A stretch of DNA of 64,000 bases, from contig NZ_JQEZ01000003.1 of assembly GCF_000743705.1 (NCBI RefSeq), forward strand, positions 669,123 to 733,122, read 5' to 3'. Shown piece after piece: positions 20,269-23,611 of this stretch. The first letter of the stretch is position 1, and each line of letters opens with the position of its first letter. A model generated the notes under the pieces. That model did no database searches, was not told the origin of the DNA, and saw only the letters and a program-made list of their open reading frames with translations. The stretch comes from Ruegeria halocynthiae. Its GTDB lineage: Bacteria > Pseudomonadota > Alphaproteobacteria > Rhodobacterales > Rhodobacteraceae. Both the position numbers and the translations under genes were made by a program.

Positions 20269-21123
20269 TCAGCCCCGCAGCGCCTGAAGAAAATCGTCGA
20301 TCAGGGCGCGTTGCTTTTTGGACTTTGCCCGATCCTTGGGCCAGGTCAGCCAATAGCCGTCCCGGGTCTGCAACTCAGGCAGTTCCAGCCTGCGCAAGCG
20401 TCCGGCCTGCAAATCCGCAGTGGCCAGCGGCACTGATCCCAACACCACGCCAATCCCCTGCCGCGCCGCCGAGATCGCGTGTTCCATCGAATCGAAGCTG
20501 ACGTTTGACGGCGGCAGCCCGTCCTGATCGGTCTTGCGGGCCCAATCCTGCCAGGCCGGTCGCTCGCCGCGCAGGTCGATCAACGGCGCACCCCAGTCGA
20601 CCCCCGGTGCGGCCATTGGCACCAGCACTTCGGGCGCAATCAGCTTGGCATCGCGCCCCGGCCACGCCCCCCGCCCATAGCGGATTTGCAACCAGGTCCG
20701 TTCTTCGTCCAGCGACGACCGCCGCGCCACGGAATCGGTCATCACCTTTACCTTGGGCCGCAAGTCCTGAAACCGCGTCAGGCTGGGCAGGATCAATGCG
20801 TGGATGTTCGACGACAACCCAGCAACCCGCAATTCGCGCGGGGATTTACCGAACAAATCCTCGGTGTTGCGCTCCAGCGCCTGCAGACTGTCCTGCACCA
20901 GCGGCAGGTAGCTTTCGCCCTCGACCGTCAGCGAGACGCCGCGCGCCTCGCGCACGAACAGCGTCCGGCCAAGCCAGGCCTCAAGGTTGCCGATCCGTTG
21001 GCTGACCGCCGCCTGTGTCAGCCCGAATTCTTTCGCTGCCGCGGAAAACCCGCCCAGACGCCCGGCGGCCTCGAACACACGCAGCCAGTCCAGCGGTGGC
21101 AATCCGATCTTTTTCTTAGCCAT
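20269..21123 (-). CDS. LysR-family regulator divergent from the tmp genes
   Basis: This 284-residue regulator has an N-terminal winged helix-turn-helix ([18 protein letters not shown], then [18 protein letters not shown]) and a C-terminal effector-binding domain. The sequence is of the GcvA-like type. It is transcribed away from tmpA with about 100 bases between the starts, the usual layout for a LysR protein that controls its neighbour, so it is the likely regulator of the phosphonate genes; the inducer might be 2-trimethylaminoethylphosphonate or a pathway intermediate. A TTG four codons upstream could also be the start. Confidence 0.9.
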
Positions 21124-21153
21124 AAGTTTTTCCAAGCCTCAGCAGAAAGAAGG

Positions 21154-21168
21154 ATTAATTGTCGTAAT
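21154..21168. promoter_or_regulatory. Candidate LysR-type binding site in the tmp divergent promoter
   Basis: ATTA at 21154-21157 and TAAT at 21165-21168 are mirror arms around seven bases, which fits the T-N11-A pattern of LysR-family sites. It lies between the divergent LysR and tmpA starts, 55 bases upstream of tmpA. Confidence 0.5.
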
Positions 21169-21222
21169 GCCACAGGCCGCGTATGTGCTCAACCAACGCC
21201 CGCGCTGAACAGGAGATCCCCC

Positions 21223-22359
21223 ATGCTGCGCTCTGCCACCCACGACGCCTCGGTCGTGACCGTTGAATTCGACAGCGGCACCCAGGCCCGCTTTCACGCC
21301 ATCTGGCTGCGCGACAACGCGCTGGACCCGGAAACCCGCGCGCCGGGCAACGGCCAGCGTCTGATCACCATCGGCGACATTCCCGCCGATACCATGGTCA
21401 GCGACGCCAAGGTTCTGAACGGTGCCCTTCAAGTGACGTTCCAGCCCGAAGATAAAACCGTCACTTTCCCCGCCGACTGGCTGGCCGATCACACCTATGA
21501 CCGGGATCAGGACCGTCCGCTGGGCCGCCTTGCCCCCGGCATCACCACATGGCAGCGCGGCATCGGCGCGCCCAGCGGTGACTGGACCCAGGTACAGGAA
21601 AACCCCGCCGCCAAACGCGACTGGCTGGCAGCGGTGGCCGAGTTCGGCTTTGCCAAGCTGACCGACGGCCCGACCGAGCCGGAGTCGCTGCTGAAAGTGG
21701 CCGATCTGTTCGGCTATGTGCGCGAAACCAATTATGGCCCGTATTTCGAGGTCCGGACCGAGGTCAACCCGACCAACCTTGCCTTTACCGGCCTTGGCCT
21801 TCAGGCCCATACCGACAACCCTTACCGCGATCCGGTACCGACGCTGCAAATCCTGTACTGCCTGGAAAACAGCGCCGAAGGGGGGGAGTCCATCGTGGTG
21901 GATGGTTTCCGCGCCGCCGAACGTCTGCGCGCCGACAACCCCGAAGGTTTTGCCCTGCTGGCGGGATATCCGGCCCGGTTTGAATACAAAGGGTCGGACG
22001 GTGTCTGCCTGCGCTCGCGCCGCCCGATGATCGAACTGTCGCCCGATGGCGAGTTGATCGGCATCCGCTTCAACAACCGCTCCTCCGCGCCGTTTGTCGA
22101 CGTGCCGTTCGACCAGATGGAGGCGTATTACGCCGCCTATCGCCAGTTGGGTGACATCATCGACGATCCCGACATGGGCGTGTCGTTCAAGCTGGAACCC
22201 GGCGAAAGCTTTATCGTCGACAACACCCGCGTACTGCACGCGCGCCTGGGTTATTCCGGTGCCGGTTCACGCTGGTTGCAGGGGTGTTATGCCGACAAGG
22301 ACGGTTTGCTGTCGACACTGGCAGCCATGGATATGGCACAGCCGGAGGCGGCGGAATGA
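21223..22359 (+). CDS. tmpA: 2-trimethylaminoethylphosphonate dioxygenase, TmpA-like
   Basis: This 378-residue non-heme iron, 2-oxoglutarate-dependent oxygenase looks like gamma-butyrobetaine hydroxylase. The iron ligands are His196 and Asp198 (AHTDNPYRD) and His339 ([10 protein letters not shown]), and Arg350 (GSRWLQGCY) fits the 2-oxoglutarate salt bridge. The N-terminal domain starts [15 protein letters not shown], where classical butyrobetaine hydroxylases carry zinc-binding Cys residues; none is present here. The gene overlaps an HD-domain oxygenase gene of the TmpB type by 4 bases. Characterised TmpA (Leisingera caerulea) hydroxylates 2-trimethylaminoethylphosphonate at C1, so I assign TmpA rather than butyrobetaine hydroxylase from the pairing. 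AGGAG precedes the ATG. Confidence 0.85.
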
Positions 22360-22946
22360 AACCCAACTTTTCGACCCTGAGCCGCGACAACATCGTGGCT
22401 TTCATCGGCGATATCTTTGACCGCCGGGGCGGCGAGGAATATCTGGGTGAACCCGTCACCATGGCCGAACATATGCTGCAAGGTGCCACCATCGCCGAGC
22501 GGAATGGTCAGGCCGAGGAAATCATTGTCGGTGCCCTTCTGCATGATATCGGGCATTTCACCTCCGAATTCGGCACCTATCACCCTGACGACACCGAAGA
22601 CCGCCATCACGAAGACGCCGGTGCCGAGGTGCTGGAGCAATTCTTTCCCTCGGTCATCACCGATTGCTGCCGCTATCACGTGGCGGCCAAACGGTATCTG
22701 TGCGCCACCAAGCCCGAGTATTTTGCGCGCCTGTCAACCGCCTCGGTCCATACGTTGGAACTGCAGGGCGGCCCGATGAGCGCCGAAGAAGTGGCCGAGT
22801 TCGAGAAAAATCCGAACCTGAAAGAGATCATTCAGGTGCGTTATCTGGACGAGGCGGGCAAGAGGGCCGATATGGAAACCCCCGATTTCACCCATTTCGC
22901 GCCGATGGTGCAGCGTATGGTCGACAAGCATCTGGGCACGGCATGA
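22356..22946 (+). CDS. tmpB: HD-domain mixed-valent di-iron oxygenase, TmpB-like
   Basis: This 196-residue protein belongs to the PhnZ-type HD oxygenases. The diiron ligands can be placed as His39 (AEHMLQ), His63-Asp64 (LLHDIGHF), His85 (RHHEDAG), His108 (RYHVAAK) and Asp165 (RYLDEAG), with spacing close to PhnZ. Tyr29 and Glu32 in YLGE match the substrate-gating Tyr and Glu of that family. TmpB cleaves the C-P bond of 1-hydroxy-2-(trimethylammonio)ethylphosphonate, giving glycine betaine and phosphate. The start overlaps the tmpA stop (ATGA) and its own stop overlaps the next start, so the three proteins are translationally coupled. A generic HD phosphohydrolase is the alternative, but gating residues and context argue against it. 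Confidence 0.87.
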
Positions 22947-23611
22947 CCGCACCAGAGTATATCTTTGAGGCCAGCTCAAAACCGTCTCTGCCGTGGCATG
23001 AGGTCCCGCTGATCCGGGCCACGGATGAAACGGTCAAGGGCTATGGCTGCCTGGTCGATGACCCAAACGGTTTCGAGATCGAAATCGCCCGCTGGCCGCA
23101 ACAGGGCTGGCGGCCCATCGACGAAGGCACCGGCGACGAAGCCGGCTGGGTTGAAGGCACCTTTCGCTGCGATTGGAAAGGCGATGTGCTGTACGGCGAG
23201 AACGAGGCGGTCAACGGCCATTATGTCCTTGGCTGGTCGGCGGACCCGCAACAGGCCCAGACCGACCGGCAAACCGCGCCGCGCGATCAGGTGTTGCTGT
23301 GGCATATGAATTATCACCCCGATGGCGGGCAGATGTTCTGGCCGCTGGACAACAAGCCTTTCATCGTCCCCGCAGCCCTGCCCGGCGACAACCTGACACC
23401 GGACAAGGTGGTGGCCTTCTGGTGCGATGGTTCACGCGGGCTCTATATCCATCCCGGCATCTGGCACGAGGGGATCTTTCCCGTCGAAGACAACCAGCGC
23501 TTTCTTGACCGGCAAGGCCGGGTGCATGCGCGGGTCAGCGCCGATATCGGCACAGAATTCGGCGTCTACCTGTCCTGCCCGTTGCGCGCGGATAAGATCA
23601 AGGATCTGTAA
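22943..23611 (+). CDS. Ureidoglycolate lyase-like (AllA-type cupin) protein coupled to tmpAB
   Basis: This 222-residue protein resembles the ureidoglycolate lyase (AllA) superfamily. The recognisable stretches are ATDETVKGYGCLVDDP near the N-terminus, IHPGIWHEGIFPV in the second half, and VHARVSADIGTEFGVYLSCP at the C-terminus. Its ATG overlaps the tmpB stop by 4 bases, so it almost certainly works with tmpAB. A ureidoglycolate substrate makes no sense in this setting and no other purine-degradation gene is nearby, so the true reaction is unknown. It might act on a side product, a precursor phosphonate or the hydroxylated intermediate. A terminator follows the stop. Confidence 0.75.
   Translation: MTAPEYIFEASSKPSLPWHEVPLIRATDETVKGYGCLVDDPNGFEIEIARWPQQGWRPIDEGTGDEAGWVEGTFRCDWKGDVLYGENEAVNGHYVLGWSADPQQAQTDRQTAPRDQVLLWHMNYHPDGGQMFWPLDNKPFIVPAALPGDNLTPDKVVAFWCDGSRGLYIHPGIWHEGIFPVEDNQRFLDRQGRVHARVSADIGTEFGVYLSCPLRADKIKDL

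Follow-up and report, generated by a model that had tools for sequence, protein, structure and literature searches.

An AllA-like double-cupin protein encoded with TmpA and TmpB, a probable accessory of aminophosphonate catabolism

Introduction

Aminophosphonates are a source of phosphorus in phosphate-poor seas. The closest described relative of the locus analyzed here is the pathway of Leisingera caerulea (PMC10574752, PMC8177086), in which, according to the covered portions of these papers, the oxygenases TmpA and TmpB convert trimethylaminoethylphosphonate to glycine betaine and phosphate and are encoded in a two-gene operon (PMC10574752), and TmpB, like PhnZ, contains a YxxE substrate loop (PMC8177086). 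We analyzed a 64,000-nucleotide stretch of the Ruegeria halocynthiae genome (assembly GCF_000743705.1, contig NZ_JQEZ01000003.1, positions 669,123 to 733,122; hereafter, the window) that encodes the same two oxygenases, in the same order and with close sequences, but, compared with L. caerulea as described, includes a third overlapping gene in the same unit. The product of this third gene, for which we coined the working name AllX, is related to the ureidoglycolate lyase AllA and very probably belongs to phosphonate catabolism.

Optional, recurrent genes that widen the substrate range are already known from aminophosphonate clusters, namely those for PbfA, PbfB-D and PbfF, as described in the covered portions of PMC8154272, PMC10590968 and PMC12366243, where no AllA-like protein is mentioned. 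AllX is likewise optional and recurrent but differs from these proteins, which have unrelated folds (pyridoxal phosphate, flavin adenine dinucleotide and nicotinamide adenine dinucleotide enzymes), in being a cupin that is tied to TmpB and PhnW clusters. In the open-licence literature, within the portions covered, we found neither a published function for AllX nor a link between ureidoglycolate lyase and phosphonate catabolism.

The TmpA-TmpB pair and the overlapping third gene

An earlier reading of this DNA from sequence (hereafter, the original prediction) had proposed a divergent LysR gene followed by tmpA, tmpB and an AllA-like gene, and the gene calls confirm this arrangement, with the regulator on the minus strand and the three genes on the plus strand (Table 1). 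Both junctions are ATGA, the stop codons of tmpA and tmpB being overlapped by the start codons of tmpB (22356) and AllX (22943), respectively. The identities proposed for the oxygenases were likewise upheld: both proteins exceed the cut-offs of curated equivalog models and match the respective solved structures, so that the pair appears ordinary. TmpB retains the YxxE loop (Y29, E32) along with the H...HD...H...H...D diiron motif, as seen by eye in the alignment to 6npa. From these sequence matches, the TmpA-TmpB operon of the window is predicted, with near certainty, to turn 2-trimethylaminoethylphosphonate into glycine betaine and phosphate. The further suggestion that the two oxygenases would be easily misannotated did not hold, given that NCBIfam contains an equivalog model for each.

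Elsewhere, in three loci (L295, L294 and L298; here and below, L and G numbers are our labels for loci and genomes), HD oxygenases scoring 168-221 bits on the TmpB model directly follow TmpA homologs (447-470 bits on the TmpA model), which suggests a divergent TmpB branch.

Table 1 Features of the R. halocynthiae locus and of related loci in other genomes
Feature	Position	Strand	Basis or remark
LysR-type regulator gene	20269..21123	-	start ATG at 21123; alternative upstream TTG at 21135 possible
ATTA-N7-TAAT inverted repeat, divergent intergenic region	21154..21168	.	candidate LysR site, inferred from alignment
tmpA, 2-trimethylaminoethylphosphonate dioxygenase	21223..22359	+	NF049936 596 bits (cut-off 400); TmpA structure PDB 6npb 643 bits
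tmpB, (R)-1-hydroxy-2-trimethylaminoethylphosphonate oxygenase	22356..22946	+	NF049941 362 bits (cut-off 300); TmpB structure PDB 6npa 372 bits; YxxE loop
Third gene (AllX), AllA-like double-cupin, 222 aa	22943..23611	+	PF04115; fold; genome context; very probable accessory of aminophosphonate catabolism
Gene for a 285-aa protein, 3' of the operon	23720..24577	+	twin-arginine translocation (Tat)-like signal, read by eye
purL-AllX-grxD loci	L066 and L182 (one contig), L069, L070, L167, L173, L175, L178, L180		
tmpB loci carrying an MR_MLE gene	L083 6480-7799, L086 5535-6788, L093, L098, L099, L101, L102, L111, L075		

Conservation of the tmpB-AllX junction

A pattern scan of one genome per species, 84,980 species in all, gave at least 558 AllX relatives, of which we retained the best 80, so that the frequencies lean to close kin. 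In this set, tmpB lies directly upstream of AllX on the same strand in 55 of the 80 loci, and the nine named Leisingera loci carry tmpA-tmpB-AllX. Across all places examined, this arrangement is found in 61 of 120 (57 distinct); these places are related by descent, many of them in Ruegeria or Leisingera. At 60 of the 61 junctions, the genes share a 4-base start/stop overlap, mostly ATGA and in a few cases GTGA or TTGA, the remaining one being TAATG. The overlap of tmpB with AllX is more than a coincidence. Hosts include, in addition to Ruegeria and Leisingera, Roseibium (L168), Rhizobiaceae represented by metagenome-assembled genomes (MAGs; L161, L171), a Rhodospirillales MAG (L192) and the gammaproteobacterium Marinobacterium (L159); in L184, the genes are reordered as AllX-tmpA-tmpB. 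Four MAGs (L162, L166, L169 and L172; G318-G321) encompass tmpB-AllX without a whole adjacent tmpA, and no TmpA match at E 1e-60 was detected in their assemblies.

In a quick phylogenetic tree of AllX, with 56 of the 103 inner branches weakly supported, the label 'beside tmpB' changes at least 8 times, 4 of these changes being forced by supported branches. Open reading frames in the loci were picked by length and base composition, and small genes may be missed.

Two side observations pertain to these loci. Broken AllX copies (L074, 7685-8346, and L068, 7008-7649), one at a tmpB junction and the other in a PbfA/PhnW cluster, indicate that the gene was lost more than once. In L162 (6170-13205), tmpB-AllX and a tmpA remnant are located amid genes that, named by eye, encode an aldehyde dehydrogenase, an acyl-CoA synthetase-like protein and a trimethylamine-methyltransferase-like protein.

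Co-occurrence of AllX with TmpB and PhnW

In a sample of 295 genomes of the family, TmpB over the cut-off is encoded in 38 and AllX in 18, a count that takes in G036, G100 and G087, where AllX is broken or partial, and a 52% relative in G086. TmpB is present in 17 of the 18 genomes with AllX versus 21 of the 277 others (Fisher p 3e-16, kinship ignored); the only family genome with AllX that lacks TmpB, G165, has PhnW. The original prediction named the absence of the third gene from most tmpAB clusters as evidence against its tie to the pathway, and such absence is indeed what is observed, with AllX adjacent to tmpB in just 8 of the 38 TmpB genomes (one of these copies broken) and present anywhere in 17 of the 38; the telling direction, however, is the reverse one. 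A genome-size artefact was checked roughly, on the assumption that 30 TmpB genomes reach 3.6 Mb or more, with the total varied. The link with PhnW is weaker in the family, with PhnW in 13 of the 18 genomes with AllX versus 18 of 62 without it, 40 of these 62 being controls from the top of the list.

A class-level sample of 385 genomes yielded TmpB/PhnZ-type HD oxygenases in 87 (E 1e-25), PhnW in 83 (E 1e-60) and AllX in 23 (E 1e-20). AllX is encoded in 19 of the 36 genomes with both an HD oxygenase and PhnW, in 2 of the 51 with the oxygenase only, in 2 of the 47 with PhnW only and in 0 of the 251 with neither, so that all 23 genomes with AllX have one or the other; the searches scored the first 5-8 candidates per genome, and hence absences are soft. 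Strict-cut-off TmpB is found in 7 of these 23 genomes (15 of 385 overall), so that, at the class level, AllX is linked to PhnW and to the oxygenase family in its wider sense. In 23 further genomes where AllX is not beside tmpB (L174 left out), TmpB exceeds the cut-off in 14, scores 278-295 bits in 2 and about 200 bits in 3, and is unmatched in 4, all four of which have PhnW. Altogether, each of the 64 distinct AllX genomes searched has a TmpB/PhnZ-type oxygenase, PhnW or both. An explanation by PhnW only was ruled out, with 13 of the 64 genomes giving no PhnW match.

Other gene neighborhoods of AllX

AllX also enters phosphonate clusters of other kinds. The 1.6-Mb genome of L289 has AllX beginning 7 bases beyond phnW, in the vicinity of phnY, phnA and a phnZ-like gene; in L160, the gene directly downstream of AllX is phnS2, which encodes an aminoethylphosphonate transporter (536 bits, cut-off 393); and in G089, a copy with one stop resides in a cluster that encodes PbfA, PhnW, a phosphonate-like LysR and PhnS2. 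A LysR gene faces AllX in 11 distinct loci (L067, L073, L184, L185, L188, L275, L279, L282, L283, L285 and L286), and all seven of these regulators tested, six from loci without tmp genes and one from L184, have TIGR03339, the phosphonate LysR model, as their best match (212-263 bits). A betaproteobacterial branch of AllX (55-58% identity) is found on Paraburkholderia replicons in 7 records, in one of them also with PhnW; in Paraburkholderia, the protein is labeled simply as hypothetical.

In 9 of the 38 family tmpB loci, that of the window being left out, tmpB is followed on its own strand, at a distance of no more than 860 bases, by an MR_MLE gene (enolase superfamily, mandelate racemase-like; Table 1). 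Its close solved relatives, 3t4w and 3rcy, carry family names only. The possibility that this protein is a racemase replacing AllX was considered, but the two are not mutually exclusive, G119 having both in one unit and G087 having AllX elsewhere; neither this notion nor the KFDP motif of the protein, which is reminiscent of sugar-acid dehydratases, was used as evidence. A connection to PbfF, the racemase of 1-hydroxy-2-aminoethylphosphonate (HAEP), via a dehydrogenase-like gene that follows AllX in L176 and L179 was rejected as well because the encoded proteins match GhrA instead, below the cut-off.

The AllX protein compared with AllA

AllX shares with AllA the double-cupin fold and the HPDGxQ...WH motif (His125/Gln130/His175). 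The PF04115 (Ureidogly_lyase) match of 47 bits, over a cut-off of 23, covers residues 122-188 only, and on the curated AllA models (NF002948-NF002954, NF009932) the protein stays far below threshold, the best score being 45.9 bits against a cut-off of 230. An AlphaFold model built from a 38-row alignment has a mean predicted local distance difference test score (pLDDT) of 91.9, and the best solved matches found with Foldseek are AllA structures, 2bdr (E 6.8e-10) followed by 1xsq, 1xsr and 1yqc, with template modeling (TM) scores by query length of just 0.50-0.53. Residues of the second barrel, H125, Q130, W174 and H175 among others, are common to AllX and 13 bona fide AllAs. In contrast, the first-barrel signature INxGxCxRxHDRA, present in 13 of the 13 AllAs, and the RAGIS stretch, present in 11 of the 13, are each found in 0 of the 38 AllX rows. 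AllX is about 60 residues longer than AllA, with a different first barrel and another genome context, and has its own invariants, including W51, R57, Y94, N123, Q191, H195 and E205. H125, Q130 and H175, together with many polar residues, are invariant across the 38 AllX sequences, down to 38% identity. The covered portion of PMC3793230 describes Escherichia coli AllA as a nickel-dependent cupin lyase. By analogy, AllX is probably an enzyme in which H125, Q130 and H175 would bind a metal.

The R. halocynthiae genome encodes a separate full-length AllA (199.5 bits) beside a gene for PuuE/2-oxo-4-hydroxy-4-carboxy-5-ureidoimidazoline (OHCU) decarboxylase, which makes it unlikely that AllX serves this organism as its purine enzyme. 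Passing the PF04115 cut-off, AllX may be labeled as ureidoglycolate lyase, or else as hypothetical, and hence missed by surveys of marine phosphorus use.

Discussion

The company that AllX keeps with phosphonate pathways in many other bacteria makes it probably a missing piece of phosphonate use, and we are highly confident in regarding it as an accessory of aminophosphonate catabolism rather than as a purine enzyme. The wide conservation of the junction, together with a co-occurrence that persists when the genes are apart, lends strong support to the original assignment of the AllA-like protein to the pathway. Of the proposed tie to the TmpAB pathway, the association stands, whereas a confinement to TmpAB does not, given the cluster with PhnW, PhnZ-like oxygenase, PhnY and PhnA and the position next to an aminoethylphosphonate transporter. 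PbfA, PbfC/D and PbfF each opened another natural substrate, and a conserved, repeatedly re-recruited gene that tracks TmpAB and PhnW points to one more substrate or step.

Several observations weigh against the explanation offered here for AllX. AllX is missing in 21 of the 38 family TmpB genomes, so that the pathway runs without it and AllX is an optional accessory; 62 of the 83 PhnW genomes of the class sample have no AllX; and among plasmid records, 161 carry PhnW (76 of them from Sinorhizobium) and just 7 carry AllX, none outside Paraburkholderia in our search. The co-occurrence samples carry no phylogenetic correction. Among the neighborhoods, AllX is found between purL and grxD in nine loci of eight genomes, beside ptsP and lysC, beside an allantoate-amidohydrolase-like gene (L278) and beside GhrA-like reductases (L176, L179), and the annotated neighbors in another Paraburkholderia record are a major facilitator superfamily (MFS) transporter and an alkene reductase, with no phosphonate genes. 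All seven AllX-facing LysRs score below the TIGR03339 cut-off of 341. One of the four loci without a whole tmpA, L162, retains a tmpA fragment, so that the loss of TmpA there may be recent decay. The metal ligands are putative, being proposed from sequence conservation and the AllA literature. As a separate observation, all eight genomes with the purL-AllX-grxD arrangement have TmpB over the cut-off elsewhere.

As for what AllX does, we tentatively favor a role in preparing or inverting a hydroxylated or otherwise modified aminophosphonate. AllX would be a double-cupin enzyme that depends on a metal and employs His125, Gln130 and His175, its substrate would lie near the (R)-1-hydroxy-2-aminoethylphosphonate node, for instance the wrong enantiomer or another modified hydroxylated (trimethyl)aminoethylphosphonate, and its product would supply TmpB, PhnZ or PbfA. 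AllX is partnered by TmpB, also where TmpA is lacking, and by PhnW combined with either a PhnZ-like oxygenase or PbfA; the common denominator of these partners, an intermediate of the (R)-1-hydroxy-2-aminoethylphosphonate type, taken together with the implausibility of phosphonoacetaldehyde as the output in AllX genomes that have TmpB but lack PhnW (see below), is what favors a preparing or inverting enzyme. Among the six AllX genomes without an HD oxygenase, G488, G301 and G165 encode PbfA beside phnW (61-72% to the PbfA of G089) and G316 has a partial PbfA match beside phnW at a contig end. Counter to this reading, the stretches examined of G546 (70% complete) and of the MAG G298 show no HD oxygenase and no PbfA, and a universal rule that AllX needs an enzyme consuming the (R)-hydroxy compound was not borne out in these two genomes. 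We consider it possible, with somewhat more reserve, that AllX founds a new enzyme family of C-P metabolism, an AllA-fold metal cupin acting directly on 1-hydroxylated aminoethylphosphonates. The chemistry could be inversion of the C1 stereocenter, such that TmpB, PhnZ or PbfA use the other enantiomer, or, alternatively, breakage of the C-P bond by a retro-aldol-like route. If true, this would be an undescribed step that the alphaproteobacterial pathways for trimethyl- and for plain aminoethylphosphonate have in common.

Next in rank, and rather doubtful, comes deconjugation, with AllX as a lyase or hydrolase that would release aminoethylphosphonate, or the trimethyl version of it, from a natural N-acyl, carbinolamine or ester conjugate ahead of the known steps. 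In favor of it, AllX accompanies TmpB in some genomes and PhnW in others, as would fit a step that precedes both; it directly precedes the transporter gene in L160 and closely follows phnW in L289; and the chemistry of AllA, which, per the covered portion of PMC3793230, releases urea from ureidoglycolate, provides a precedent; yet no recurring conjugate-specific partner gene was seen, the AllA first-barrel signature is absent from AllX, and the tmpB-AllX pairs without TmpA would need another reason. The lyase ancestry would also fit an eliminating lyase with an activity like that of PbfA on (R)-HAEP, yielding phosphonoacetaldehyde from hydroxylated (trimethyl)aminoethylphosphonate, and PhnW, present in 21 of the 23 class genomes with AllX, agrees with it. 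We nevertheless deem such a lyase very unlikely: 13 AllX genomes have TmpB but lack PhnW, and in these PhnA and PhnX were each matched in 0 of 13 (E 1e-20), so that phosphonoacetaldehyde would have no known outlet there, although neither search had a matching control genome (the PhnA model scores 466 bits on L289, and the PhnX search was without a positive control).

That AllX is simply ureidoglycolate lyase or a close analogue in purine or ureide breakdown, its link to phosphonates reflecting a shared marine lifestyle, we consider just as improbable. The PF04115 match, the AllA structures as nearest solved folds and the allantoate-amidohydrolase-like neighbor in L278 speak for it, but it is hard to reconcile with the separate AllA of the same genome, the lack of both AllA signatures in all AllX rows, the overlap at 60 of 61 tmpB junctions and the lack of AllX matches in the 251 class genomes that have no HD oxygenase and no PhnW. 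Cupins can be non-catalytic, and stand-alone AllX facing a LysR gene recurs, in line with AllX assisting the oxygenases without catalysis, as a sensor, as a chaperone or in metal handling; such a role is nonetheless unlikely, with the invariant H125, Q130, H175 and many polar residues looking catalytic and AllX occurring in genomes without a TmpA match. Least plausible of all, with only a slim chance, is a mere passenger of a mobile tmpAB cassette: the cassette is found in several orders and AllX is broken in G036, in G100 and in one copy of G089, but AllX tracks TmpB or PhnW when located elsewhere in the genome and enters different phosphonate clusters.

The regulator and other features of the locus

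The product of the divergent gene matches PF00126 and PF03466. Its nearest NCBIfam model is the GcvA subfamily (173 bits, below the cut-off of 288), and it scores just 59 bits on TIGR03339. In an alignment of 18 regions chosen from close relatives, the intergenic region is well conserved and the ATTA-N7-TAAT repeat is largely kept, so that the latter is a plausible candidate for the LysR site.

The 285-aa protein encoded 3' of the operon has no match among the Pfam or NCBIfam models. Its homologs are found near AllX, no more than about 6.5 kb away, in 14 of the 120 places, the named ones being from Ruegeria.

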